NCBI GenBank assembly: GCA_016790075.1
Contig: JAEUPP010000011.1
Location: 1-51,229, forward strand
DNA length: 51,229 nucleotides
Direction of reading: 5' to 3'
Source: Rhodanobacteraceae bacterium
GTDB taxonomy: Bacteria > Pseudomonadota > Gammaproteobacteria > Xanthomonadales > Rhodanobacteraceae
Positions 1 to 50,002 of this stretch are shown here, in pieces. Within the stretch, counting starts at the first letter, position 1; each line of letters starts with the position of its first letter. The position numbers were made by a program, and so were the translations under genes. The notes beneath the pieces were generated by a model. That model saw nothing but the letters and a program-made list of their open reading frames with translations, was not told where the DNA came from and made no database searches.

Positions 1-3000
1 TTGACCCGCTGCCGTACAACCGGCCGGCAAGGTACCTATCGTGAGTCCGGCCGGAATCGTGTCGGTGATCGTGGCTACTGCCGTCGTGGCTGCCGTGCCG
101 GTATTCGTGACCTGCAGCGTGTAACTCGCCGCTACACCGACTGTCCACGGACTGGCGCTGGCTGTCTTGACCAGGGTCAGCTCGGGTGTATTGACGCCCG
201 TCGGACCTTCGGTATCGCTGCAGCGTGGTGCGGCCGGACAGCCCGCATCACCACCACCACTAACCGTGGCCGTATTCGTCACGCTGGGCACCGCCGCTGC
301 CGTTGGTGTTACCGGAATCACGAAGCTGATGCTCGCGCTGACCGCCAGGCCACTGGCGATGGTGCACGTCACAGTCTGACCGACTGCCGTACAGCCGGCA
401 GGCAAGGTGCCTATCGTCAGCCCTGCTGGGATCGCGTCGATGATCGTCGCCAGCGCTGTCGTAGCTGTTGTTCCTGTGTTCGTGACCTGCAGTGTGTAGC
501 TCGCGGCCACACCGACCGTCCATGGACTGGCGCTCGCGGTCTTGGTCAGAGTCAGCTCGGGCGTAGTCACGCCAGTTGGACCTTCGGTGTCACTGCAGCG
601 GGGTGCGGCTGGACAGCCCGCATCACCACCACCACCAACCGTGGCCGTATTCGTCACGCTGGGCACTGCCGCTGCCGTTGGTGTTACCGGAATCACAAAG
701 CTGACATTGGCGCTCACGGCCAGGCCGCTGGCGATGGTGCAGGTCACGGCCTGGCCCGCTGCCGTACAACCAGCCGGCAAGGTGCCTATCGTGAGTCCGG
801 CCGGAATCGTGTCCGTGATCGTGGCGGCTGCCGTCGTGGCTGCCGTGCCGGTATTCGTGACCTGCAGCGTGTAACTCGCCGCCACACCCACAGTCCACGG
901 ACTGGCGCTGGCTGTCTTGGTCAAGGTCAGCTCGGGTGTATTGACGGGGGTCGGGCCTTCGGTATCGATACAGCGCAGCGCAGCCGGGCAACCTGCATCG
1001 CCGCCGCCACTCACACTGGCTGTATTCGTCACACTCGGCACAGCCACCGCCGTCGGTGTTACCGGGATCACGAAACTCGTGCTCGCACTGACCGCCAGAC
1101 CACTAGCAATCGTGCAGGTCACGGTTTGCGCTACCGCTGTGCAACCAATGGGCAGCGTGCCTATCGCCAGGCCCGCCGGGATCGTGTCCGTAATAGTCGA
1201 TACAGCGGTGGTCGCCGCCGAGCCTGTATTCGTGACCTGCAGCGTGTAACTCGCCGCCACAGCCACAGTCCACGGACTCGCGCTCGCTGTCTTCGTCATT
1301 GTCAGTTGCGGCGCGCCGTTTACGGTGGTTGGACCTACCGTGCCGGTACAACGGCTCGCCGCCGGACAACCCGCATCGCCACCGCCACTGGTGGTGGCCG
1401 TATTCGTCACACTCGGTATAGCGGCCGCAGTCGGTGTTACCGGTATCACGAAGCTGGTGCTGGCACTGACTGCCAGACCGCTAGCGACGGTACAGGTCAC
1501 GGTTTGCCCCGCCGCCGTACAACCAGCCGGCAAGGTGCCTATCGTGAGTCCGGCCGGAATCGTGTCCGTGATCGTGGCGACTGCTGTAGTCGCCGCCGAG
1601 CCCGTGTTCGTAAGCTGGAGCGTATAGCTCGCCGCCACACCAACGGTCCACGGACTGGCGCTCGCGGTCTTGATCAGGCTTAGTTGTGGCAAGCCGTTGA
1701 CGGTGGTTGGACCTACCGTGCTGGTACAGCGGCTGGCCGCAGGACAGGTAGCGTCACCGCCACCACTGGCCGTGGCTGTATTGGTCACGCTCGGTATAGC
1801 GGCGGCGGTTGGGGTTACCGGAATCACGAAACTCGTGCTGGCACTGACCGCCAGGCCACTGGCAACCGTGCAGGTCACGGCCTGACCTACCGCTGTACAA
1901 CCGGCCGGCAAAGTGCCTATCGTGAGGCCCGCCGGAATCGTGTCCGTGATTGTGGCAGTGGCCGTAGTCGGTGCTGAACCGGTATTCGTGAGCTGCAGCG
2001 TATAGCTTGCGGCCACACCCACGGTCCACGGACTGGCGCTCGCGGTCTTGACCAGGGTCAGTTGTGGCACGCCGTTAACGGTGGTCGGCCCTACCGTGCT
2101 GGTACAGCGGCTCGCCGCCGGGCAACCCGCATCGCCACCACCGCTCGCCGTCGCCGTATTCGTCACGCTGGGTATGGCTGCAGCTGTTGGCGTTACCGGG
2201 ATTACGAAGCTTGTGCTGGCGCTGGCCGCCAGGCCACTGGCGACGGTGCAGGTCACGATTTGACCCGCCGCCGAACAGCCGGCCGGCAAGGTGCCGATGG
2301 TAAGGCCAGCCGGAATCGTGTCGGTGATCGCTGATGCTGCGGTAGTACTCGCCGAACCCGAGTTCGTGAGCTGCAGCGTATAGCTTGCGGCCACACCCGC
2401 GGTCCACGGGCTGGCGCTCGCCGTCTTGGTCAGCGTCAGCTGTGGCACGCCGTTGACGGTGGTCGGACCTACCGTGCTGGTACAGCGGCTCGCCGCCGGG
2501 CAACCCACATCGCCACCACCGCTCGCCGTCGCCGTATTCGTCACGCTGGGTATGGCTGCAGCTGTTGGCGTTACCGGGATTACGAAGCTTGTGCTGGCGC
2601 TGGCCGCCAGGCCACTGGCGACGGTGCAGGTCACGGTTTGACCCGCCGCCGAACAGCCGGCCGGCAAGGTGCCGATGGTAAGGCCAGCCGGAATCGTGTC
2701 GGTGATCGCTGATGCTGCGGTAGTACTCGCCGAACCCGAGTTCGTGAGCTGCAGCGTATAGCTTGCGGCCACACCTACGGTCCACGGACTGGCGCTCGCG
2801 GTCTTGACCAGGGTCAGCTCCGGCGTATTGACGATGGTTGGGCCAACGGTGCTGGTGCAGCGGCTCGCTGCAGGGCAGGTAGCGTCACCACCACCACTGA
2901 CGCTGGCCGTATTCGTCACGCTCGGCATTGCCGCCAGGGTTGGTGTTACCGGAATCACGAAACTCGTGCTCGCACTCGCTGCCAGACCGCTGGCGATGGT

Positions 3001-3190
3001 GCAGGTCACGGTTTGACCTGCCGCCGTACAACCGGCCGGCAAGGTGCCAATGGTCAGGCCCGCGGGAATCGTGTCCGTAATCGTGGCAGCGGCCGTAGTC
3101 GCCACCGCTCCTATATTCGTGACTTGCAGCGTATAACTCGCAGCCACACCCACGATCCACGGACTGGCGCTGGCGGTCTTGTTCATGGCC
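1..3190 (-). repeat. Tandem DUF11-encoding repeats, period 375-378 bp
   Basis: The anchor sequence resembling gtattcgtgacctgcag recurs at 101, 476, 851, 1226, 1604, 1982, 2360, 2738 and 3113. Spacings are 375, 375, 375, 378, 378, 378, 378 and 375 bp, so each unit codes for 125 or 126 residues and the reading frame is kept. The 378-bp units carry one extra codon near the KTASASPW linker (NGVPQLTL rather than NTPELTL). Units become more alike toward 2060-2820. The array continues past the left edge, so the copy number is at least nine. Confidence 0.92.
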
Positions 3191-5481
3191 AGCAAGGGCG
3201 CCAGAGCATTGGTGAACACACAGGTGAGATCGTCGCCAGCGACAGCAGTCAGGGTGAACGAGGTTGTGCTGCCTGACGGTGTCTGCCCGCCTGCCAGCGC
3301 ATTGGAACAGGTATACGTTGTCGAGTAGTTTGCAAGATTCGCACCCGAGGCACCCGTCTCGCTCAAGGTATACAGTGCGCCAACAGCCCCTGGGTTCAGC
3401 GTCGCCGTACCGGTCGCCGTGCTTCCCGCGCCCGTCGTCGTGACTGTGGCGGGCCCGCCCGTACCGGCAATAGAGAGCGTGAACTGATCGGCAGGGGCGA
3501 AACGGCCGTTGGGCAACGATTTCTGCAGCCGCAAAATTGGCAGCTTGGTGTTCGTGAACGTACAGGTGAAGCTCACGCTGGCGGCGATTTCAGCGCCGGT
3601 AAGCGTGTAGGTGCTGCCACTGAGACTGCCGACCGGCGCGCTGGCTGCATTGACGCAGGTTGCGCCGGTAAGTGACCAGCCTGCGGGAAGGCTGTTTTCA
3701 TTGATCGTTACAGCAGTCGTCGGCGAAACGATGGTAAACGGCTGTGTACCAGCGATACCGGTATCACCATCGACCTGGGTTACGGTGTTCGCCGCCGATG
3801 TCGTCACTGAACCCGTGGCCTGCGCCGTATTCGTCAACGCAAAACCAAAGGGGCCACCGGCACCGCCAACCGTGATCTTGTTGAGCACCAGGGCGCGGTT
3901 GACCTGGAACTGATAGTCCTCGACTTCACCACTCTGCACTGTGCTTACCGGCGTGTTGCAATTATCGAGGGGAGCGGTCGCGGCACTGCTGGTGCAGACA
4001 CGGAAACGCGCAAACGTCGGCCCGATGGCAGCGCCGAGCGGCACGGCGATGTTGAGATTGACGGTTCCGACTGCAACCGCCTGATCACTCACCATCTGTT
4101 CGCCGACATCGTTGAAATCGCCATCGGCGTTCCAGTCAAACCACGCGTTCAGAACTCCCGACGCGTTCTGAATGCTGACCGGAACAACCGTGGTATAGCC
4201 GATTGGCAGCAATGGCGTCAGCGTTACGCCATTCTCGTCATCGGTATTGTTGACATCATCCCCGGTGGCGCCGGCATTGTTAAGCAAGGCAGCATCAGCG
4301 TCGGCACTTGCACCCAGACGAATGCCTGTAATGGTATGACTGGGATTGCCGTAGCTGACCGGCGCATCCCCCACGTCCGCATTGTCAGATTCCAGCAGGA
4401 ACGAGGCATTGGTGCCGCCGTAGACCAACGTAGCGGCTGCGCCTGCGGCCTGCAGGGTGTAAAGGCTTCCCGGTGTTCCACCACCGTTGCGGAAATAGGC
4501 ACCGCCGCTGAATCCATTCGGCTCGTTGTTGATGTTGCCGTTGGGGGTGTCGTACTCACCCGCTGCATTGGTGGTCGACAGCGTTGCCAGCGCGACATGC
4601 CCCGCCGGCAGCAGGAATCCCTCGGTGCTCGCATTGGCACCCATGACGAGCTTGCCGTCATCCGCTTCATCGGGCGCCTGACCGGCGTCATAGGCAGCCG
4701 GCGCCAGGGAGAAGTTGCCGGCCGTTCCGGTCGTTACCTGTGCCGTAGCCGTGGCGTTGCGCACGAAGCCCGTTACGGTTTGCTCGACGTTCTGGTAGAC
4801 GGATGCGATCAGCATCGCCTCGTCACCGGCGCCGGAAGGGACGGTGACGTCAGGAAACGTGATAGAGACATTGCCGGAAGCGGCACCACCCAGCAGCGTA
4901 TTGATTTCACTCTCGAACAGAACGATGTGGAAGCTACCGAGGCTGAAGAAAGCGGTACCGGCCGGAGAGCCGTTGGGCGAGGTACTGATCGTGATGAAAC
5001 GCGTATCACCACTGGGCGTGCCACCAATGACCAGGGCATTCTGCTTGTTGATGGTCCCGCCTGGCCCTATGACTTGCGCCGTGATCTGGTTGTTCGAGGT
5101 GGTTGCCGGCGGTGTGCCAACACGCGGCTCGGGCCAGTTATCGCCCAGGCCGGTGCCCGCAGTATTGCCGCTTACGCACAAACCGCTCGCTGTGTCAGCC
5201 GGCGAACAGTGATCGCGCTCGAAGGTGCCCCAGATAAAGAGGGCGCGGTTTTTCCCCGATGGAATGTTGAGCGTGGCAATGGTGGGCTTGCCCGTCGCCC
5301 CTGCACCGGTAGCCGTTGCGGTTTGTGTATTCAGATGCAGAACCTGCGCCGCTTGTAGCGGCTGCACGGCCATGGTCAGCACCAGTCCAGCGCTCAGCCC
5401 TATACCTTTCCAGCCCGGCCAGGAGCGAAACAATACCGCGGAATACCTCCCGGCCGCGGAAGCAATAGCACGAAAGAGCAT
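1..5481 (-). CDS. Giant secreted GEVEDY/DUF11-repeat surface protein (C-terminus off window)
   Basis: The frame is open without a stop from the ATG at 5481 to the window edge: 1,827 codons, 3' end missing. A good ribosome site (GGGAGG) lies about 8 nt before the ATG. Residues 1-45 are a long signal peptide ending in PLQAA. A DVGDAPVSYG motif (about 368-377) followed by GEVEDYQF (about 517-524) marks the GEVEDY domain found in large secreted proteins. Residues about 525-760 contain two SpaA/prealbumin-like segments ending in CTFTN or CVFTN. From about 764 onward there are tandem DUF11 repeats with the signatures KTASASPW, ITDTIPAGLTIGTLPAGC and VTCTIASGLA. The long plus-strand frames here are shadows of this repetitive, high-GC gene. 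It is probably an exported adhesin or extracellular structural protein; that function is inferred from domains only. Frame and architecture are secure. Confidence 0.9.
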   Translation of the reverse strand, partial: MLFRAIASAAGRYSAVLFRSWPGWKGIGLSAGLVLTMAVQPLQAAQVLHLNTQTATATGAGATGKPTIATLNIPSGKNRALFIWGTFERDHCSPADTASGLCVSGNTAGTGLGDNWPEPRVGTPPATTSNNQITAQVIGPGGTINKQNALVIGGTPSGDTRFITISTSPNGSPAGTAFFSLGSFHIVLFESEINTLLGGAASGNVSITFPDVTVPSGAGDEAMLIASVYQNVEQTVTGFVRNATATAQVTTGTAGNFSLAPAAYDAGQAPDEADDGKLVMGANASTEGFLLPAGHVALATLSTTNAAGEYDTPNGNINNEPNGFSGGAYFRNGGGTPGSLYTLQAAGAAATLVYGGTNASFLLESDNADVGDAPVSYGNPSHTITGIRLGASADADAALLNNAGATGDDVNNTDDENGVTLTPLLPIGYTTVVPVSIQNASGVLNAWFDWNADGDFNDVGEQMVSDQAVAVGTVNLNIAVPLGAAIGPTFARFRVCTSSAATAPLDNCNTPVSTVQSGEVEDYQFQVNRALVLNKITVGGAGGPFGFALTNTAQATGSVTTSAANTVTQVDGDTGIAGTQPFTIVSPTTAVTINENSLPAGWSLTGATCVNAASAPVGSLSGSTYTLTGAEIAASVSFTCTFTNTKLPILRLQKSLPNGRFAPADQFTLSIAGTGGPATVTTTGAGSTATGTATLNPGAVGALYTLSETGASGANLANYSTTYTCSNALAGGQTPSGSTTSFTLTAVAGDDLTCVFTNALAPLLAMNKTASASPWIVGVAASYTLQVTNIGAVATTAAATITDTIPAGLTIGTLPAGCTAAGQTVTCTIASGLAASASTSFVIPVTPTLAAMPSVTNTASVSGGGDATCPAASRCTSTVGPTIVNTPELTLVKTASASPWTVGVAASYTLQLTNSGSASTTAASAITDTIPAGLTIGTLPAGCSAAGQTVTCTVASGLAASASTSFVIPVTPTAAAIPSVTNTATASGGGDVGCPAASRCTSTVGPTTVNGVPQLTLTKTASASPWTAGVAASYTLQLTNSGSASTTAASAITDTIPAGLTIGTLPAGCSAAGQIVTCTVASGLAASASTSFVIPVTPTAAAIPSVTNTATASGGGDAGCPAASRCTSTVGPTTVNGVPQLTLVKTASASPWTVGVAASYTLQLTNTGSAPTTATATITDTIPAGLTIGTLPAGCTAVGQAVTCTVASGLAVSASTSFVIPVTPTAAAIPSVTNTATASGGGDATCPAASRCTSTVGPTTVNGLPQLSLIKTASASPWTVGVAASYTLQLTNTGSAATTAVATITDTIPAGLTIGTLPAGCTAAGQTVTCTVASGLAVSASTSFVIPVTPTAAAIPSVTNTATTSGGGDAGCPAASRCTGTVGPTTVNGAPQLTMTKTASASPWTVAVAASYTLQVTNTGSAATTAVSTITDTIPAGLAIGTLPIGCTAVAQTVTCTIASGLAVSASTSFVIPVTPTAVAVPSVTNTASVSGGGDAGCPAALRCIDTEGPTPVNTPELTLTKTASASPWTVGVAASYTLQVTNTGTAATTAAATITDTIPAGLTIGTLPAGCTAAGQAVTCTIASGLAVSANVSFVIPVTPTAAAVPSVTNTATVGGGGDAGCPAAPRCSDTEGPTGVTTPELTLTKTASASPWTVGVAASYTLQVTNTGTTATTALATIIDAIPAGLTIGTLPAGCTAVGQTVTCTIASGLAVSASISFVIPVTPTAAAVPSVTNTATVSGGGDAGCPAAPRCSDTEGPTGVNTPELTLVKTASASPWTVGVAASYTLQVTNTGTAATTAVATITDTIPAGLTIGTLPAGCTAAGQ

Positions 5482-6069
5482 AGGACCGCCTCCCATTGCA
5501 TTTAAGAATTATTACAAAGTTACTCAGGTTTATATTTATACATCAGGGACAGGCAACGACGTAAATTCAGGCAATCAGTATCAGCCCGTGGCCGGCATCG
5601 CCCGAACAAGGCAACGCGAAGCAGCAGCCACACTCACCCTAACTCCGCACCACATAACGTCCAACGCAAATTCGGACTACGAACAAGTGACTGCACGGTC
5701 CACAATCGACCAGTCATCGTCGCAAGGGCGCCGGCCGACACAGAAATCGAGGCAGGTGAAACTTCGCTTCCCTCGTCTCGTAGGAGGCGCACGAAACGGC
5801 CTTCGAGGTTCATGCAAGCAAGTCGCCGGCAAACGCAACGCGGCGGCGTAAACCATCGTGGACATGTTCATCCCCTTGGAACATGTTGCTGACTTTTAAA
5901 CTAACAGCAGTTTTAGCGTTGCTCAAGCAATACGACAAACACAGCCAGGACCACCTCCTGCCCCGGCGCTACAGCTCCCGCCAACCGGTGCCAACCTGGC
6001 CATTGACTTCCGGCCAGCTGGCCATTGCCCTGCTACAGTAGGCAACGGCCCTACCCCTTCGGAAAAACC
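5482..6069. other. Divergent intergenic region between the DUF11 protein and a secreted Cys-rich protein
   Basis: This 588-bp gap separates two divergent genes and must hold both promoters. The part next to the DUF11 gene (about 5500-5560) is clearly more AT-rich than the surroundings, as expected for a promoter. I could not fix convincing -35/-10 pairs. One short minus-strand ORF with a ribosome site lies inside and is listed separately. Nothing else was recognised. Confidence 0.5.
5677..5865 (-). CDS. Possible 62-residue hypothetical small protein
   Basis: A short frame begins at the ATG at 5865, six nt after an AAGGGG ribosome site; an in-frame ATG at 5871 is too close to that site. The product is basic with three cysteines, has no clear signal peptide or membrane span, and matches no family I know. 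An AT-rich stretch upstream (5895-5930) could carry a promoter. The ribosome site and leader are the only real support, so it may be chance. Confidence 0.25.
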   Translation of the reverse strand: MSTMVYAAALRLPATCLHEPRRPFRAPPTRRGKRSFTCLDFCVGRRPCDDDWSIVDRAVTCS

Positions 6070-41944: not shown

Positions 41945-44095
41945 TCAGCGGCGCAATCCCGTCAGCACCAGCCGACGCTGCCAGCGTTCTGCCAGCGACC
42001 GCGGACTAGCCAGGCCCAGTCGCTCCAGTGCAGCAAGCTCATCTGGACGGGCTGCAGCCGTGCACAGCGCGCGCAGCAGCAGGCCGAGGCGACCGGGACC
42101 CCGTGCGCCGCGCTGCTTGAGCCACTGCAACGCCGAGCCGAGTTGCCGCTCGACTGGCGTGAAGTCCGAGCCGAACGGGAATGCATCAAACAGGCCACGT
42201 GCACGCAACGGCGCCAATGCCGCAGCCAGCGCCTCCGGCGTATTGCGCCGCCAGGCCGGTGGTACAACGAAGTCGGCGGCAAGCTTGCCCGCCGCCTTGG
42301 CCTGCGTGACCAGGCCATCGACAAACCGCGCATCGCTGACCGCCAGCATAGCCAGAACACAGTCCTGGTCCGATTTGCCACGCAGGTCGGCGACGCCGTA
42401 TTCGGTCACGAACACATCGCGCAGATGGCGCGGAATCGTGGTGTGGCCGTAGCTCCAGCGAATGCTTGAGCGCGCGCCCTGAGCAGCACCGCGGCTGGCA
42501 CGCAGCAGCAACACCGAACGGCCATCACGCAGGGCATGCGCCATCGCGACAAAGTTGTACTGCCCACCTACGCCGCTGACGACCCGGCCATCTTCCAGAG
42601 CATCCGACACAGCCGCACCGAGCGCGGTCGCCATCATGCAGGTATTGAAGAAGCGCCCGTCACGGCGTTGCAGCGCGTCCAGCGTTTCCCGCCCGCCGTA
42701 CAGCTGGTTGATATCGGACACGCGAGTCATCGACACGCCGTCGAATGCATCGCCTTCAAGGCCGCCCAACCAGCGGTAGAACTCCGTCGACCCCAGGTAG
42801 AACGCACCCCGCAGATAGCGTCCGTCGCAGAGGCGGCGCCCAGTCATCACCCGCCCCAACGCGGCGCGTGCGCTCATTTCCCGCAGGTCACAGGAGATCG
42901 ACGAGCCATCCGGCAACAGAACCTGGTCCGCGTCGATGCGTGAACCTTGCGGCAGCAAGCCGCAACGCATCAGGCGGGCCAGCTCCGGGCCGCTGATCAA
43001 AGACGGCAGCGCGCCGCTGGCGTACAGCCGCTCGACGTCACCGGTTTTCAGCGTTTCGTCGATCAGCCCCTCGGCCAGCGCCTGCTCGATTGCGAAATCA
43101 TCGAATACGCGGCGCTTGAGGACACCGGCGCGGGCAAGGTGCATGAAGCCGTCCATGACCATTTCGCTTGCGCCGTAGAGGCCGCGGGCAAAGGGGGCAA
43201 GGCCGCCTACGGTGTCCGACAGTGCATGCGTGCCACCGAGTGCACTCAACGCCTCGCGGTAAGCGCCGTTGTCGCGCTGGCGCAGCAGCAGGGCGTGCAC
43301 CAGGGCGTCCGACAGTGCACCGATGCCGATCTGCAAGGTGCCGCCATCGCGCACCAGCGTGCTCGCATGCAGGCCCAGGGCGAACTCGGCCAGACTCACC
43401 GGTTCGCGCGGCAGCGCGAACAGGGCGTGGTCGCAAGCCGGGTCATCCAGCAGCAGGTCAAAGAAATCCGCATTGACCTCCGCTTCGTTCGCAATAAAAG
43501 GCAGACGCGGATGGACTACGCCCACGACCAATGGACGCGGTCGGCCGCTGGCCGCCATTTCTTCCAGCAGATCCTGGGTTACGTCAGGATTGCTCGCCAT
43601 GCTCAAGCGCTCGCGACCGGCCTCGACGCGCCGCGCAACCAGCTGCACGACGACATTGATGCCGGCATTGGCCAGGTCGCGCGCGACGTGCGTGTAGTTC
43701 AGGCTGGCGTACTCCCGCTGCGCCGAGGCGTTGTCGAGCAGGGCGCCTGACTGCAGATAGAACTCGCTGATGCGCACACGCGGCGGCAGAGTGCCATCGC
43801 GGCGTGCGGCAACATAGTCGAGATCAGGATAGTCGGCGCCGAACTGCCGCTCCAGAAACGGACCCAGAAAGCGCCGCTCCAGATCGGATTTGGCCACCGG
43901 CCGCGCCAGCGACAGCGCCGTAAAGATATGTAGCGTCTGGCTGGTATCAGCGAGGACCGCACGATACAGCGCGTTAAGCAGCACATTGGGTTTGCCCAGA
44001 CCCAGCGGCGCCGCCAGACGCAGGTGTCCAGCCCCGTGGGCAAGAATCCGGGATACCGTTTCCGCCACTGCGGCCAACCTTTCCACGTGCCTCAT
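41945..44095 (-). CDS. Acetyl-CoA hydrolase/transferase family protein
   Basis: The product has 716 residues from the ATG at 44095, 4 nt after GGAGG. It belongs to the COG0427 CoA-transferase/hydrolase family. Recognisable blocks are LRLAAPLGLGKPNVLLNALY near the N-terminus, GGTLQIGIGALSDALVHALL, and the C-terminal VSGVGGQYNFVAMAHAL, IRWSYGHTTIPRHLRDVFVTEYGVADLRGKS. The family moves CoA between acetyl-CoA and carboxylates or hydrolyses it. At over 700 residues it is longer than the usual 430-630, like other long Lysobacterales and Pseudomonas versions. The substrate is not deducible. Confidence 0.88.
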   Translation of the reverse strand: MRHVERLAAVAETVSRILAHGAGHLRLAAPLGLGKPNVLLNALYRAVLADTSQTLHIFTALSLARPVAKSDLERRFLGPFLERQFGADYPDLDYVAARRDGTLPPRVRISEFYLQSGALLDNASAQREYASLNYTHVARDLANAGINVVVQLVARRVEAGRERLSMASNPDVTQDLLEEMAASGRPRPLVVGVVHPRLPFIANEAEVNADFFDLLLDDPACDHALFALPREPVSLAEFALGLHASTLVRDGGTLQIGIGALSDALVHALLLRQRDNGAYREALSALGGTHALSDTVGGLAPFARGLYGASEMVMDGFMHLARAGVLKRRVFDDFAIEQALAEGLIDETLKTGDVERLYASGALPSLISGPELARLMRCGLLPQGSRIDADQVLLPDGSSISCDLREMSARAALGRVMTGRRLCDGRYLRGAFYLGSTEFYRWLGGLEGDAFDGVSMTRVSDINQLYGGRETLDALQRRDGRFFNTCMMATALGAAVSDALEDGRVVSGVGGQYNFVAMAHALRDGRSVLLLRASRGAAQGARSSIRWSYGHTTIPRHLRDVFVTEYGVADLRGKSDQDCVLAMLAVSDARFVDGLVTQAKAAGKLAADFVVPPAWRRNTPEALAAALAPLRARGLFDAFPFGSDFTPVERQLGSALQWLKQRGARGPGRLGLLLRALCTAAARPDELAALERLGLASPRSLAERWQRRLVLTGLRR

Positions 44096-44455
44096 CACAC
44101 CTCCGTTGCTGAGGAAGGTCCGCCCGGGTATCCATTACACGACTGTCATGCCCGCAGCTTTTCTATCCGGACCCGACAAACACATGCGGCCGGCCGGCCC
44201 TGAATGCGGCTCGGGACAACCGCGGCCTGGCCGCCGCTTTCCAACCTTGCCCGGGTCCACGGCCGCGACCGCGCCGGCGCGGCCGAGTATGCAGGCCGGC
44301 GCGCACCGATGTCATGAATTGGCACGACTATGCGTTACAGTCCGGGCGCAGGAACGCAGGCCCTCGGGAAGGCCCGGCTCCAAGGCCCGAGGGGGCCGCG
44401 GCACGTTCCAGGAACATTAGCCCGGCGGCATCAGGACCGCCCAGCGAGGTAAGGA
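44096..44455. other. Leader and promoter region of the redox operon, with a hairpin
   Basis: This 360-bp divergent gap precedes the operon at 44456. CCCTCGGG (44361-44368) pairs with CCCGAGGG (44386-44393) and can extend by GG/CC, placing a stable hairpin about 60 nt before the start codon. The ribosome site is GAGGTAAGGA. I looked for FNR/CRP-type TTGAT-n4-ATCAA or TGTGA-n6-TCACA boxes and saw none. Confidence 0.45.
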
Positions 44456-46870
44456 ATGAGCGAGCGATTCCGTATCGCTATAGTCGGTTCCGGTCCAGGC
44501 GGCCTGTCGGCTGCAGCACGCGCGGCAGAACGCGGTGAATCGCATGTGCTGCTCGAAGCCGAGCCGCATCTGTCCAACACCATCTACCGCTACCAGAAGG
44601 GCAAGTTCGTGATGGACGAGCCCGGGATACTGCCGCTGCGCTCGCCCGTGCCGTTCAAGGCCGGGTCGCGCGAAAGCATACTCGGGGCCTGGGACGAAGC
44701 AGCCGCCAAGCTCAAGATCAACGTGCGCCACGGCCACGAAGTCAGCGCGATCAAGAAACGCGAAGACGGCAGCTTCGAGCTCAAATGTGCCAACGGCGCC
44801 GTCGTCCAGGCCCAGTTCGTGGTACTCGGCATAGGCCTGCAGGGCAATATCCGCAAACTCGGCGTGCCCGGCGAGGATCTGCCGTTCGTGCAGTACCAAC
44901 TCGATGATCCGGACGAATACGAGGGGGAGACCATCGTCGTCGTCGGCGCCGGCGACGCGGCCATCGAGAACGCCGTAGCGCTCGCGAAGCAGAACAACGT
45001 CGTCATCGTGAATCGCCGTGACGAGTTCGCCCGCGCCAAGAAAGGCAACGAAGCAGCCATTCTCAAGGCCATCGACGACGGTCTGGTCGAGTGCTACTAC
45101 AACGCCGCACCCGAGCGCATCGATGCACTCAGTGTCGGCCGCAAGAAAGGCCGCATGATCCTGGCCACACCCAACGGCAAGGCACAGATCCTGATCGACC
45201 GCGTCATCGGCCGCCTCGGCGCGACCGCGCCACGCGGCTTTGTTGAAGCCTGCGGCGTCACCTTCCCGAGCAAGGATCCCGCTGCCGTACCGGCGATCAG
45301 CCCGCAATACGAGTCCAACGTCAAGGGGTTGTATATCGTCGGTGCGCTCGGTGGCTATCCGCTGATCAAGCAGGCGATGAACCAGGGGTATGAAGTCATC
45401 GAGTACATCCGCGGCGAGCGGGTGGAACCGGCGGACGAACCCTTGCTCAAGGCCAAACTTGGCAGCATGCCGGGATTCCGCAGCGTGGATGACGTGCTGG
45501 CTCGCATACAGCAGAACGTACGCGTGCTGTCGCATATCACTCCGCTGCAGCTGCGCGAATTCATGCTTGACTCCGACCTGCGCACGCCCGCCCCCGGCGA
45601 AACCGTGTTCGCACGCAACGACTACACCAACAGTTTCTATTCCATCGTCGAGGGTGAAGTGCATATCGCCCTGGACGACGAAGGCAAGCAGCACATCACC
45701 CTGCGCCGGGGCGAGTTTTTCGGCGAGATGGGCCTGATCTCAGGCCGCCGCCGCTCGGCCACGGTCAAAGCGGGCAAAGGCTGCGTGCTGATAGAAACGC
45801 CGCGCCGCTCCATGAACCGGCTGATCAACTCCGTTGCCGCGGTCAAGCGCGAGATCGACGAGGTCTTTATCCTGCGCGCCATCCAGTCGCGCTTTGCACC
45901 GGAAGCCACGGCCGACCAGCTCAAGGACATGGTGGCAACTGCCACCTTGCAGAAGTTCGCCGCCGGCGACACCTTGTTCGGCGAAGGCGAAGTCGGCGAC
46001 TGCCTGCACCTCGTACGCGTCGGTTCGCTGACGATCTCGCGCAACATCGCCGGCAAGGAAGTGGTCCTGTCCTATGTGCCTGCCGGCAACTATGTGGGCG
46101 AGATGGCGCTGCTGGGTGAATCACGCCGATCCGCCACCGCACGCGCAGCCATCGCCACCGAAACCGTGCGCCTGGACGGCGAGAGCTTCAAGAAGCTCGT
46201 CAACCGCATGCCGGTGCTCAAGCTGCGGCTGCAGGCCGAATACCGCCAGCGCGCCGCCTCGAACCTGGCCATGCAGGCACTGCCGGCGGGCGGCGACATC
46301 ATCCAGTTCCTGCTCGCACAGGGCGCCGGCGAAGCAACCGACATCCTGCTGATCGACGAATCCCTGTGCGTACGCTGCGACAACTGCGAAAAGGCCTGCG
46401 CAGAAACCCATGGCGGTACCTCGCGCCTGGACCGCGAGGCCGGCCCGACCTATGCCAGCGTGCACGTACCCACTTCCTGCCGGCACTGCGAGCATCCGCA
46501 CTGCATGAAGGACTGCCCGCCCGATGCGCTGCGCCGCGCGCCGAACGGCGAGGTCTACATAGCCGACAACTGCATAGGCTGCGGCAACTGCGAACGCAAC
46601 TGCCCCTACGGCGTGATCCATATGGCGTCCAAGCCGCCGAAAAAGCCGGGCCTGCTGAACTGGCTGCTGTTTGGCCTCGGCCCAGGACCAGGCGAGGCAC
46701 CCTACGACCCGAAGAAGTCGAAGAAAGAGCCCAAGGAAAAGAAAGCCGTAAAATGCGACATGTGCAAAGATGAAAAAGGAGGACCGGCCTGCGTACGTGC
46801 CTGCCCTACCGGCGCGGCCATCCGCATTTCGCCAGAGGAGTTTCCGGCCTATGCGCAGAGCCGGCGCTGA
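44456..46870 (+). CDS. Flavoprotein - double cyclic-nucleotide-binding - four-cluster ferredoxin fusion
   Basis: The product has 804 residues with no signal peptide, so it is cytoplasmic. Residues 1-310 are a thioredoxin-reductase-like FAD/NAD(P) module (IVGSGPGGLSAA at 10 and IVVVGAGDAAIENA near 161, then LYIVGALGGYPLIKQAMNQG). Two cNMP-binding domains follow, about 355-470 and 475-600. Both keep the phosphate-binding cassette (GEMGLISGRRRSATV and GEMALLGESRRSATA). The C-terminal part (about 630-790) is a HybA/DmsB-type ferredoxin with four cysteine groups: CVRCDNCEKAC, CRHCEHPHCMKDCP, CIGCGNCERNCP and CDMCKDEKGGPACVRACP. The chain should take electrons from NAD(P)H through FAD to four Fe-S clusters, possibly gated by cyclic nucleotide. 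It is the first gene of a four-gene operon. Confidence 0.9.
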   Translation: MSERFRIAIVGSGPGGLSAAARAAERGESHVLLEAEPHLSNTIYRYQKGKFVMDEPGILPLRSPVPFKAGSRESILGAWDEAAAKLKINVRHGHEVSAIKKREDGSFELKCANGAVVQAQFVVLGIGLQGNIRKLGVPGEDLPFVQYQLDDPDEYEGETIVVVGAGDAAIENAVALAKQNNVVIVNRRDEFARAKKGNEAAILKAIDDGLVECYYNAAPERIDALSVGRKKGRMILATPNGKAQILIDRVIGRLGATAPRGFVEACGVTFPSKDPAAVPAISPQYESNVKGLYIVGALGGYPLIKQAMNQGYEVIEYIRGERVEPADEPLLKAKLGSMPGFRSVDDVLARIQQNVRVLSHITPLQLREFMLDSDLRTPAPGETVFARNDYTNSFYSIVEGEVHIALDDEGKQHITLRRGEFFGEMGLISGRRRSATVKAGKGCVLIETPRRSMNRLINSVAAVKREIDEVFILRAIQSRFAPEATADQLKDMVATATLQKFAAGDTLFGEGEVGDCLHLVRVGSLTISRNIAGKEVVLSYVPAGNYVGEMALLGESRRSATARAAIATETVRLDGESFKKLVNRMPVLKLRLQAEYRQRAASNLAMQALPAGGDIIQFLLAQGAGEATDILLIDESLCVRCDNCEKACAETHGGTSRLDREAGPTYASVHVPTSCRHCEHPHCMKDCPPDALRRAPNGEVYIADNCIGCGNCERNCPYGVIHMASKPPKKPGLLNWLLFGLGPGPGEAPYDPKKSKKEPKEKKAVKCDMCKDEKGGPACVRACPTGAAIRISPEEFPAYAQSRR

Positions 46871-46890
46871 GACGCGCGGAGTGACTTCCT

Positions 46891-47337
46891 ATGACCGACT
46901 CGCTCGCAACCTGCCCACACTGTCAGACTGGGCAGGCAGTCGCCGACTGGCGCCAGCGCCGCTGTGTCCAGTGCGGGCGCGCATTCTATCCGGCGCCAGC
47001 GGTCGATCCGGTTCTGCAACGCAAGCAGCAGACCCGGCGCCTGCTGCGCGAACGCAGCGAACAGGAGGCGCAGGAGTCCATAGGCCGCTTTCAGGCCTGC
47101 TGCTTCATCGGCGGATTCCTCCTGCTGGTCCTTATCGTACAGCTCAGCTTCGATGCGGTGTTTTTCTCCGGCAAGGGCAACAGCGTCGTGATCCTGCGCC
47201 ACGAGGAACCACTGCGATACTGGAACTGGGTAGCAGCAACGGCGGCCGGCGCGACGCTGTTCTTCGGCATCGGCCTCTACGGGCTGCGCCGCGTTCGCAG
47301 CAGGCTTGCGCGCCGCTTTCCGGACGACGAATCATGA
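46891..47337 (+). CDS. Zinc-ribbon two-span membrane protein
   Basis: The product has 148 residues; the ATG at 46891 follows GCGGAG, 21 nt after the previous stop. An N-terminal zinc ribbon (CPHCQTGQAVADWRQRRCVQCG) is followed by a charged helical linker, a membrane span (FIGGFLLLVLIVQLSFDAVFF, about 70-90) and a second one (WVAATAAGATLFFGIGLYG, about 111-130). Both ends should be cytoplasmic. The role is unknown. Its place in the operon suggests it helps assemble or dock the soluble fusion protein at the membrane, which is inference. Confidence 0.8.
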   Translation: MTDSLATCPHCQTGQAVADWRQRRCVQCGRAFYPAPAVDPVLQRKQQTRRLLRERSEQEAQESIGRFQACCFIGGFLLLVLIVQLSFDAVFFSGKGNSVVILRHEEPLRYWNWVAATAAGATLFFGIGLYGLRRVRSRLARRFPDDES

Positions 47338-47401
47338 TCCGCTCTGCCGCATCGAAACAGACGCGAGCCACGCGGCGACTCGCGATTGACGGAGCCCGCA
47401 C

Positions 47402-48310
47402 GTGAACGCGCGCCACGAATCCATCCTGAATCATAGCGGAGCGCGCTGGCTCTGGATCGCGCTCGCGCTGATCGTGGTTTCACTGCTGGCCTATGCACTG
47501 CATTCGCCTGCAGTACCTCCCAACGGCGGCACCTGGCTGGGCTACACCCTGGGCACGATCGCCGGGCTGCTGATTCTCTGGCTGATGTACTTCGGCGTGC
47601 GCAAGCGTTCCTATTCCGGCACCTCGAACTTGCGTGGCTGGCTGTCGGCCCACGTATACCTGGGCACGGCGCTGATTCTGCTCGCGCTGCTGCACGCAGG
47701 CTTTCAGGTCGGCTGGAACCTGCACACCTTCTTCCTCGTACTGATGTTGCTTGTAATCGTCTCGGGATTTTTCGGCGTCTACTGCTATCTGCGTTACCCG
47801 ACCCTGATGACGCGCAACCGCGAGAGTGCAACACGTAGTGCGATGCTGGAGGAAATTGCCGAGCTCGACCAGACCGCGCTCACCCTGGCCGACGGCATAG
47901 ATCCGAAAGTCCACGATATCGTGCTGCGTTCGATCCAGAACACGCGCCTGGGCGGCGGCGTACTGGCCCAGTTGCGTGCGCATGACGATTCCGATGCAGC
48001 GCTGGCCGGCATCCGGGCCGCGCTCGAAGCGCGCGAAAAGTCGCAGCAGGCGGCCGGCGGCGCGAAATCCGGACAGACCATATTCGCCATGGTCGATTTT
48101 CTGGCCAGCGGCACCAACGACCGCCAGGCCGAAGCACTGCGCAAACTCATCGACCTGCTGTCGCGCAAGAAAACCCTGGCCTCGCGCGTTGCGCGCGACA
48201 TCCAGTATCAGGCGCTGATGGAAATCTGGCTCTATTTTCACGTGCCGCTATCGTTCGCGACAGTAGCGGCATTGTTTGCGCACGTGATCGCGGTCTTCTT
48301 CTACTGGTAG
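47402..48310 (+). CDS. Cytochrome b-like multi-span membrane protein
   Basis: The product has 302 residues from a GTG at 47402 after a GGAG site. Hydrophobic spans lie at about 18-36, 43-62, 77-94, 100-122 and 280-300. Histidines sit at positions suited to heme b: LRGWLSAHVYLG and LALLHAGFQVGWNLH in the middle helices, and FHVPLSFATVAALFAHVIAVF in the last. Between the fourth and last spans is a roughly 150-residue hydrophilic, helical segment (LEEIAELDQTAL and RKLIDLLSRKKTLASRVARDIQYQAL), facing the cytoplasm. It probably carries electrons across the membrane between the Fe-S fusion and the decaheme cytochrome. Heme binding is inferred from the histidines. Confidence 0.75.
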   Translation: MNARHESILNHSGARWLWIALALIVVSLLAYALHSPAVPPNGGTWLGYTLGTIAGLLILWLMYFGVRKRSYSGTSNLRGWLSAHVYLGTALILLALLHAGFQVGWNLHTFFLVLMLLVIVSGFFGVYCYLRYPTLMTRNRESATRSAMLEEIAELDQTALTLADGIDPKVHDIVLRSIQNTRLGGGVLAQLRAHDDSDAALAGIRAALEAREKSQQAAGGAKSGQTIFAMVDFLASGTNDRQAEALRKLIDLLSRKKTLASRVARDIQYQALMEIWLYFHVPLSFATVAALFAHVIAVFFYW

Positions 48311-48322
48311 GCAGGCAAACGC

Positions 48323-50002
48323 ATGCGCTGGCTGATACGCCGGGTACTCAAGCAGGGCAAGGGCGCGGTTTCCTACGAGGAAGACGTCCATTTCGGCGAC
48401 ATATTGTCGATAGGCCGCGCCGCCGATCAGGCGATATTTCTTTCCGACATCCGCGCGGCGCTGAATCATGCCCGGGTCACCGCGCTGAGCCCCGGCCGCT
48501 ACAAGGTCGAGTCGCTGATTCTCGCCGGCATACGGGTGAACGGCGAGCTGACTTACGCCACCAATGTCGGCGCCGGCGCGAGCGTGGAAATCGCCTCGAC
48601 CCGCATCGTGCTGCTGGAACCGCCGCGCGATTTTGAAGCGGCCGTCGAGATATCCACGCTCGACAAGACCGAACAGGAAGCCGCCAAGGCTAAACGAGCG
48701 AAACCCACCTCGCTGCGCGAGACCTGGCTCAGCAAGCGCTTTCCATCCTGGCTGCTGTTTGTGCTGGTACTCGCCTTCGGTCTGCTGCTGCCGGCGGCTT
48801 CACACTTCGTGCCGGCGCTGGGGCGCCTGATGGGGCATATCGGATTGCCGACGACGGCAAGCTGGAATCCCGGACCACTGGATGCCGCACATCGTTTCTT
48901 CGGCGACGACTGCAAGCAATGCCACCGCACCCCCTTCCTGACTGTGCGTGATGAAGCCTGCACTACCTGTCATACCCGCATGGCCGCGCATGCCGACCCG
49001 GCACGCTTCAACCTGCCCCAGCTCGGCGAAGCCCGCTGCGGCAGCTGCCATCAAGACCACCTCGGCCTCGCCGGCATGGTCAATACCGACGAATCGCTGT
49101 GCGCCGATTGCCACACCGATCTCCCGGCGCGCACTCAGAACGCGACCCAGCTCGCCGACGCGACCGATTTCGGCAAGCACCACCCGGAATTCCGCGTACG
49201 CCTGCCGGCCTGGGATGCCAGCGGCAAGTTCACGCCGCAGCTCACGCGTCTCGCCGCAGATCTCAAGGAAAACTCCGGACTCAAATTCGACCACGCGCTG
49301 CACCTGAAGCCCGATCTCAATTCACCCCGCGGTCGCCGCAGTCTCGACTGCGCGAGCTGTCACGTGCCGGACGCCGGCGGCCTGGCGATGAAACCCGTCA
49401 ACTTCCAGAGCATGTGCCAGGACTGCCATACCCTGGGCTTCGACACCTTCGCACCGGATCGGCAGGTGCCTCATGCCAAGGTTGCCGAAGTCGTGTACAT
49501 GCTCGACGACTACTACGCCAAGCGTGCGCTGGAAGGCGGTTACACCGAGGCCAGTGCCCCAGGCTTCGTGCAACAGCGACGCCGCCCCGGCGATACACCG
49601 CTGAGTCAGCAGGAAACCATCGAAGCCCTGAGCTGGGCGCGCAACAAGTCGCGCCAGGTCGCCGACAGCGTGTTTACCGGCCGCGCCTGCGTGACCTGTC
49701 ATACAGTCACGCGCGCCGCGGCGACGAACGTCCCAGGCGCGGGCTGGCAGATCGCGCCGGTGCGTGTTGCCGGCATCTGGTATGGCGAAGCAAAATTCAC
49801 CCACGCCAAGCACTCGACGATGGACTGCAAGGACTGCCATGCAGCGGCTACGTCCAAGAGTGCGACGGATCTACTGATTCCGGACCTCGCCAACTGCCGT
49901 CAATGCCATGCCGGCGCCGACGGCGGCAGCAAGGTGGCCAGCACCTGCATCGCCTGCCATCGCTACCACCAGTCAGGCACATTGCAACTGAATACGCTGT
50001 AG
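48323..50002 (+). CDS. FHA-like domain - membrane span - decaheme c-type cytochrome
   Basis: The product has 559 residues; the ATG at 48323 is 12 nt past the previous stop. Residues about 15-105 form a forkhead-associated-like domain (GDILSIGRAADQAIFLSDIRAALNHARV, then YKVESLILAGIRVNGE). One membrane span follows (WLLFVLVLAFGLLLPAASHF, about 142-162), putting the rest in the periplasm. Ten CxxCH heme sites follow: CKQCH, CTTCH, CGSCH, CADCH, CASCH, CQDCH, CVTCH, CKDCH, CRQCH and CIACH, between about residues 197 and 545. FHA domains normally bind phosphothreonine, so the cytoplasmic part could receive a kinase signal; key residues look only partly conserved. It is the last gene of the redox operon. 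Confidence 0.9.
   Translation: MRWLIRRVLKQGKGAVSYEEDVHFGDILSIGRAADQAIFLSDIRAALNHARVTALSPGRYKVESLILAGIRVNGELTYATNVGAGASVEIASTRIVLLEPPRDFEAAVEISTLDKTEQEAAKAKRAKPTSLRETWLSKRFPSWLLFVLVLAFGLLLPAASHFVPALGRLMGHIGLPTTASWNPGPLDAAHRFFGDDCKQCHRTPFLTVRDEACTTCHTRMAAHADPARFNLPQLGEARCGSCHQDHLGLAGMVNTDESLCADCHTDLPARTQNATQLADATDFGKHHPEFRVRLPAWDASGKFTPQLTRLAADLKENSGLKFDHALHLKPDLNSPRGRRSLDCASCHVPDAGGLAMKPVNFQSMCQDCHTLGFDTFAPDRQVPHAKVAEVVYMLDDYYAKRALEGGYTEASAPGFVQQRRRPGDTPLSQQETIEALSWARNKSRQVADSVFTGRACVTCHTVTRAAATNVPGAGWQIAPVRVAGIWYGEAKFTHAKHSTMDCKDCHAAATSKSATDLLIPDLANCRQCHAGADGGSKVASTCIACHRYHQSGTLQLNTL

Follow-up and report, generated by a model that had tools for sequence, protein, structure and literature searches.

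How might a flavoenzyme that carries cyclic-nucleotide-binding domains work together with a decaheme cytochrome encoded in the same operon? The question is raised by four genes, here called A, B, C, and D, at the end of a 51,229-base stretch of DNA from a Rhodanobacteraceae bacterium (the window, which is the entire contig C28 of genome G000). All four lie on the + strand, with intergenic gaps of 20, 64, and 12 bp, and the open reading frame (ORF) positions, shared direction, and gaps given in a first-pass annotation were reproduced exactly. We lean towards a reading in which A, C, and D form the inner-membrane half of an electron exporter that spans the envelope, is driven by NADPH, and is gated by cyclic nucleotide. 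Below, we set out the domains, conserved residues, and gene neighborhoods that suggest it, together with the alternatives.

The conserved core of the operon is three genes rather than four. In a tblastn search of 57 other loci, A was matched in 57, C in 53, and D in 52, whereas B (46891-47337; 148 aa) was matched in only two (L003 and L008). Because B has no match in the other 55, the four-gene module of the first-pass annotation was rejected in that form; its A, C, and D components stand as a conserved unit. B itself, for which no Pfam model scored above cut-off, is a small zinc-ribbon-like membrane protein, specific to its lineage and outside the core. In a later 57-locus set, which includes the window and excludes L008, C and D occur within 3 kb downstream of A in 51 loci. 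A-C-D is thus conserved as a unit far beyond chance. We gathered these loci from Gammaproteobacteria and other classes of the phylum, as well as from the alphaproteobacterium Sphingobium. With the window's own genome counted, 17/369 genomes sampled from the class and 15/398 sampled from the phylum have a match to A at E<=1e-50. It was also found on 12 plasmids, all from Sphingobium, at 46-47% identity over at least 80% of its length. On one plasmid, typed as conjugative (L028; Sphingobium herbicidovorans pMSHV), A-C-D is followed by a metallophosphoesterase gene, and a homolog of f4 (a large cytochrome described below) lies on the opposite strand. The metallophosphoesterase family is present in eight loci, namely L028 and seven from classes other than that of the window.

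A (44456-46870; 804 aa; predicted to be soluble) joins three kinds of domain, as judged from Pfam and NCBIfam matches, Protein Data Bank (PDB) relatives, and conserved residues. A YpdA/TrxR-like NADPH/FAD oxidoreductase (residues ~1-320) is followed by two cyclic-nucleotide-binding (cNMP) domains (~375-460 and ~499-584) and a HybA/HydN-type ferredoxin with 16 cysteines (~630-790). The NAD(P)/FAD, double cNMP, and four Fe-S cluster architecture described by the first-pass annotation is borne out by Pfam, in which cNMP_binding (124.9 bits, in two stretches), Pyr_redox_3/2, and several Fer4 models all exceed their cut-offs. PDB relatives include Bdr/YpdA (7a7b), regulatory subunits of PKA (5j3u and 1rgs), and HycB3 (7qv7). 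For the cNMP part, the best relatives are the regulatory regions of PKA and PKG, one Toxoplasma protein excepted, and a single stretch covering both domains aligns with PKA regulatory subunits. We rejected A as a YpdA/Bdr bacillithiol disulfide reductase, with a score of 111.6 bits against the cut-off of 339.9 for the equivalog TIGR04018.

The residues expected to matter in A are strongly conserved. All 16 ferredoxin cysteines are kept in at least 95% of 54 sequences. In the first phosphate-binding cassette (PBC-1), G423, E424, and R433 are each present in 54/54 sequences, and in the second (PBC-2), G548, E549, and R558 are present in 54, 47, and 50 of the 54. Both cNMP domains therefore keep the Gly-Glu...Arg cassette that we take to be the mark of cyclic-nucleotide binding. 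The gating proposed in the first-pass annotation retains this footing; the identity of the nucleotide and the gating itself are predictions. In the second Rossmann fold, R187 is found in 53/54 sequences, within a segment similar to the NADPH-type motif of thioredoxin reductase. In 13/58 stretches, the flanking DNA retrieved with A includes a gene for an NADP-specific glutamate dehydrogenase (716.6 bits; cut-off 536), which fits NADPH as the substrate of A. It lies immediately 5' of A on the same strand, at ~130 bp or less, in L062, L070 (5044-6390), L072, L073, L103, and L104, which span four families.

C (47402-48310; 302 aa), a putative di-heme b-type membrane protein, has five hydrophobic windows, taken as five transmembrane (TM) helices, with a WxxxHx13H motif in TM3, SGxxG in TM4, and a second WxxxHx13H in TM5. 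At least 95% of 51 sequences share the residues W80, H84, H98, S121, G122, G125, W276, H280, and H294, and the histidines expected to ligate heme (H84-x13-H98 and H280-x13-H294) are also present in 19/19 aligned C proteins. Family models match C weakly: Ni_hydr_CYTB reaches 18.2 bits for the window's C, below its cut-off of 30.1, and at E<=0.1 it matches 15/19 homologs (best 8e-6), with Ferric_reduct matching 3/19 (best 0.0013). A search of the PDB with a C profile gave weak matches, the best at E 0.63. In two genomes, A and C are one ORF (L079:3052-6423, 1,123 aa; L081:8850-12206, 1,118 aa). This fusion is separate evidence for direct contact between A and C, and it would place the N terminus of C in the cytoplasm. 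With five TM helices, the pair H84/H280 would then face inward and H98/H294 outward.

D (48323-50002; 559 aa) is predicted, from Pfam matches and CXXCH counts, to consist of an N-terminal FHA domain (residues ~25-100), one TM helix (~145-163), and a c-type cytochrome domain with ten hemes. In the window's D, cytochrome c3/c7 Pfam models score above cut-off and ten CXXCH motifs are present. D proteins of 49 of the 52 loci likewise have ten, the exceptions being L079 and L081 (nine plus one C-x4-CH each) and L073 (six, cut by the end of the locus). The 20 cysteines and 10 histidines of these motifs are each found in 95% or more of 49 sequences. So are ten further histidines (190, 223, 246, 287, 324, 327, 384, 494, 497, and 549), which are candidate distal ligands; their number matches bis-His ligation of ten hemes. 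Among named organisms, the nearest relatives of D that we found belong to the gammaproteobacterial genus Tahibacter, at 89% identity.

The FHA domain of D is a firm prediction at the level of the family. The FHA match of the window's D (15.9 bits) falls below the cut-off of 20.7; with PF00498, E values of 0.01 or lower (best 2.7e-9) were obtained for 17/19 aligned D proteins, that of the window not included, and D of L101 passes the cut-off at 26.9 bits. For phosphothreonine binding we looked at Gly-Arg, Ser, and His, which we take to be the canonical FHA positions. Gly31 is present in 49/49 sequences, Arg32 in 41/49, and His49 in 43/49, but the position aligned with the usual phosphate-contacting serine is alanine in 29/49 and serine in 3/49. 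The phosphothreonine signal suggested in the first-pass annotation is weakened accordingly, and we regard phosphothreonine binding by D as doubtful. We also dropped the argument from a Ser/Thr kinase beside the FHA gene, since a motif search found kinase-like ORFs in 4/57 neighborhoods (L063, L075, L101, and L103), which is too few.

Where would electrons go beyond D? The annotation's remark that no terminal reductase is encoded holds for the window, but the cause is the window edge and a split locus, as the contig stops 1.2 kb past D. Other stretches carry, after D, genes of three families: f3, an HbpS-like protein (PF03928, 80.5 bits) that is a lipoprotein judging by its N terminus; f5, of ~600 aa; and f4, of ~1,250 aa with LVIVD repeats and 10 CXXCH motifs in 17/19 members (L028 and L086 being cut by the locus end). 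A tetraheme cytochrome, f6, also recurs. Over 58 stretches, f3 is present in 31, f5 in 31, f4 in 29, and f6 in 14, and the order D-f3-f5-f4 on one strand was seen in 24. The window's own genome has f3-f5-f4 on contig C14 and an f6 homolog on C7, apart from the operon; judging from contig ends, the outer genes are at least ~8 kb from D, or ~14 kb if collinear. In other genomes, the distance between D and f5 is 83 kb on a single contig (G1028) or 1.2 Mb (G748).

The outer genes nonetheless track the core across genomes. Among 299 genomes of the order (the D and f5 counts being taken as one draw from their matching count and handles), D was found in 38 and f5 in 39. Both were present in 37 genomes, D alone in one (G813), f5 alone in two (G772 and G924), and neither in 259. 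In a second genome set, f5 was present in 22/28 A-positive versus 0/27 A-negative genomes and f6 in 28/32 versus 0/27, the copy in G038 having an internal stop. The acceptor side, to which the first-pass annotation had assigned no protein, is partly resolved: the core is accompanied by a tetraheme cytochrome, a large decaheme-LVIVD cytochrome, and what is likely an outer-membrane barrel, and the acceptor itself is still a matter of prediction.

We predict with moderate confidence that f5 is an AlgE-like outer-membrane barrel. Its C-terminal residue is Tyr or Phe in 26/26 members, and Alginate_exp, the outer-membrane barrel family of AlgE, weakly matches 5/15 members (best 1.4e-5); a PDB search with the f5 profile returned no match at E<=10. 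We also scored amphipathic strands with a measure of our own, using LamB, FadL, and BtuB of E. coli and seven non-barrel proteins as controls. Its z values were 1.8 to 4.7 for barrel controls, -1.0 to 0.7 for non-barrel controls, and -0.1 to 2.8 for five f5 members, which the score did not set apart. A barrel gene clustered with multiheme cytochrome genes, the general hallmark of a porin-cytochrome conduit, is found in the 24 stretches in which f3-f5-f4 follow D on one strand, with the barrel assignment moderate. An alternative outer part is seen at L068:12547-17277, where genes for a pentaheme cytochrome, a porin-like protein, and two tetraheme cytochromes lie directly 5' of A-C-D. This porin-like protein has matches in 5/59 genomes (its own included) and none in G000, and the f5 profile misses it.

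The domains, the conserved ligand positions, the synteny, the A-C fusion, and the co-occurrence can be read directly from these loci, and they suggest the following route. NADPH would reduce FAD in A, and electrons would pass through the four Fe4S4 clusters of A to two stacked b-hemes of C, a cytoplasmic one held by H84/H280 and a periplasmic one held by H98/H294. From there they would reach the ten bis-His c-hemes of D and, probably via the tetraheme cytochrome, an outer-membrane unit (HbpS-like lipoprotein, AlgE-like barrel, and large decaheme-LVIVD cytochrome) and an external acceptor. The tandem cNMP domains, set between the flavin and Fe-S domains, probably act as an allosteric switch on this flow, much like those of PKA regulatory subunits. 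The fusion, the synteny, and the conserved ligands all support the order of carriers, and the path from NAD(P)H through FAD, Fe-S, and b-heme to c-heme drawn in the first-pass annotation is upheld by the domains, by those ligands, and by one conserved operon. Binding of hemes and clusters, the outward direction, the acceptor, the nucleotide, and the gating we infer.

Several observations weigh against such an exporter. First, the direction of electrons is not readable from sequence. Second, the core is not invariably together: in six of the 57 loci, the 3 kb around A do not hold C and D. These loci are L062 and L069 (short contigs), L070, L072, L073, and L089. In L070, L072, and L073, A stands beside glutamate dehydrogenase, with C and D 6.3 kb downstream in L073, and L089 is the second A copy of G369. 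Third, any of f3, f5, and f4 was found in only 35/58 stretches, and in 24 of the 31 stretches that extend 6 kb or more past D. Both f5 and f6 are missing from three genomes that have A (G369, G394, and G505), which shows that A-C-D does not always come with these outer parts, and G028, G038, and G091 lack f5. Fourth, structural support is thin: AlphaFold2 models from shallow alignments reached a pLDDT of 54.4 for C, with no fold-search match at E<=0.001, and of 26.6 for f5, and the alignment-averaged strand-score z was 0.8 for f5 versus 1.3 for A. Finally, we found no experimental test or biochemistry of such clusters in the open-licence literature.

A broader proposal follows, which we put forward tentatively and with rather less confidence than the export route itself. 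In a widespread form of extracellular electron transfer, the entry enzyme may be an allosteric cyclic-nucleotide receptor resembling a PKA regulatory subunit, so that a second messenger would directly set NADPH-driven export in a matter of seconds, with no need for transcription; glutamate dehydrogenase would be one source of NADPH. A rival explanation, which we consider plausible if not favored, is that the cNMP and FHA domains serve as spacers in the structure or as docking modules, with no second-messenger gating; it fits either direction of flow. In its favor, the FHA serine position is mostly alanine, and the related Yop-YscD_cpl model of type III secretion systems matches the same proportion of D proteins as FHA does (17/19). 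The lack of a CRP-box-like site upstream of the operon agrees with it too. In the intergenic stretch at 44099-44455 (+ strand), flanked by divergent genes and the expected site of the promoter, neither a sigma-70-type match on the + strand nor a CRP-box-like one turned up. An upstream CRP box as a second link to cAMP was rejected on this ground, the whole window having 11 such matches against a shuffle mean of 14.8. On the other hand, the invariance of Gly, Glu, and Arg in PBC-1 is stronger than a spacer would predict, and the continuous alignment of both cNMP domains with PKA regulatory subunits also speaks for a sensor.

Could the conduit run inward instead? Electrons from external Fe(II) or Mn(II) would then pass through the outer-membrane unit, D, and C to the quinone pool, and A would make NADPH by reverse transfer or as a side branch. 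We consider this unlikely. A looks NADPH-type by its motif and has an NADP-specific glutamate dehydrogenase near it in 13/58 stretches. Reduction of NADP+ by Fe(II) near neutral pH needs an input of energy, and Tahibacter and Sphingobium are heterotrophs; both points count against inward flow. In addition, a 2026 study of the Sterkfontein karst suggests export for most metagenome-assembled genomes that bear porin-cytochrome clusters (PCCs) (PMC13264449). What favors inward transfer is that C carries the inner-membrane motifs of PCC3 and PCC4, for which He et al. propose inward flow (PMC5566968), and that L068, with its pentaheme, porin-like, and two tetraheme proteins next to A, C, and the decaheme D, comes near the PCC4 gene list. 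Lastly, a core that feeds only the periplasm (cytochromes such as f6, or reductive detoxification), with the outer-membrane link as one of several uses, would agree with the three genomes that have A-C-D without f5 or f6 and with identity-matrix correlations that are higher within A/C/D (r 0.92-0.94) and f3/f5/f4 (0.87-0.92) than across them (0.62-0.87), as if there were two sub-modules, but it is made improbable by how closely D and f5 coincide across 299 genomes, also when the two are unlinked.

Two other features of the window were noted. Divergent from the operon, a minus-strand gene at 41945-44098 encodes a 717-aa protein whose sole recognized domain is a C-terminal acetyl-CoA hydrolase/transferase; homologs occur in the same neighborhood in L005, L006, L007, L093, and L110. 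At the other end, positions 1-3202 hold 8.5 tandem copies of a 378-bp unit (81% matches) within a long minus-strand ORF (1-5496), open at the contig edge, that perhaps encodes a repeat surface protein.

How does the putative exporter compare with known systems? Porin-cytochrome conduits are already known as a kind, and in the open-licence literature we found no description of a cNMP-bearing dehydrogenase or of an FHA-decaheme protein. The first-pass annotation could name no characterized system with this gene set, which is fair, but a putative named cluster exists: PCC4, to which He et al. gave this name in 2017 and for which they suggested a role in Fe(II) oxidation (PMC5566968). In their description, the PCC4 inner-membrane protein spans the membrane five times and carries SGxxG and a pair of WxxxHx13H motifs, read as two b-hemes. 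C has all of these; the motifs also occur in PCC3 and are thus not specific to PCC4. In PCC4 Subgroup II, an Fe-S (pfam13247) gene lies 5' of the inner-membrane protein gene, the two being a single gene in one species' annotation (PMC5566968); A matches PF13247 (38.0 bits; cut-off 26.2) and lies upstream of C. The PCC4 list has a porin and cytochromes with 4, 5, and 10 hemes, whereas the loci here mostly have 10 (D), 10 plus LVIVD (f4), and 4 (f6). L068 nearly reproduces the list, including the 4-, 5-, and 10-heme cytochromes. These likenesses are by description, and the main text of that paper has none of the words 'cyclic', 'FHA', and 'LVIVD' (PMC5566968).

Group-1 PCCs from the Sterkfontein karst pair a decaheme gene of 4-5 kb with a porin of ~20 strands and have a ferredoxin-NADP+ reductase nearby in 7/11 cases (PMC13264449). 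By description, these parts fit f4, f5, and A; no b-cytochrome, FHA-decaheme, or cyclic-nucleotide domain is named for them in section 18 of that study, and its main text does not contain 'cyclic', 'FHA', or 'LVIVD' (PMC13264449). The Geobacter extHIJKLMNOPQS genes encode a porin-like protein, multiheme cytochromes (12, 10, 5, and 4 hemes), a b-type cytochrome, and an Fe-S protein, and the available text describes a Rieske/cytochrome b pair for Ext and names neither an NADPH dehydrogenase nor a cNMP domain (PMC5877670). We rejected f4 as ExtM, with 70-74 bits against the cut-off of 800 for the equivalog model NF040943 of NCBIfam.

A further parallel lies in the order of carriers. NADPH oxidases and ferric reductases (FRE/NOX) pass electrons from NADPH to FAD and on to two stacked b-hemes across the membrane. 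A and C would follow the same order, and Ferric_reduct is found in 3/19 C homologs. Unlike FRE/NOX, A-C-D is split into separate proteins and has an Fe-S relay and tandem cNMP domains, with multiheme cytochromes on the far side of the membrane. The porin-cytochrome conduits known to us are all fed from the quinone pool; A-C-D, by comparison, appears to be fed by NADPH, with a second-messenger sensor built into the feeding enzyme. If true, this would amount to direct allosteric control over electron export.

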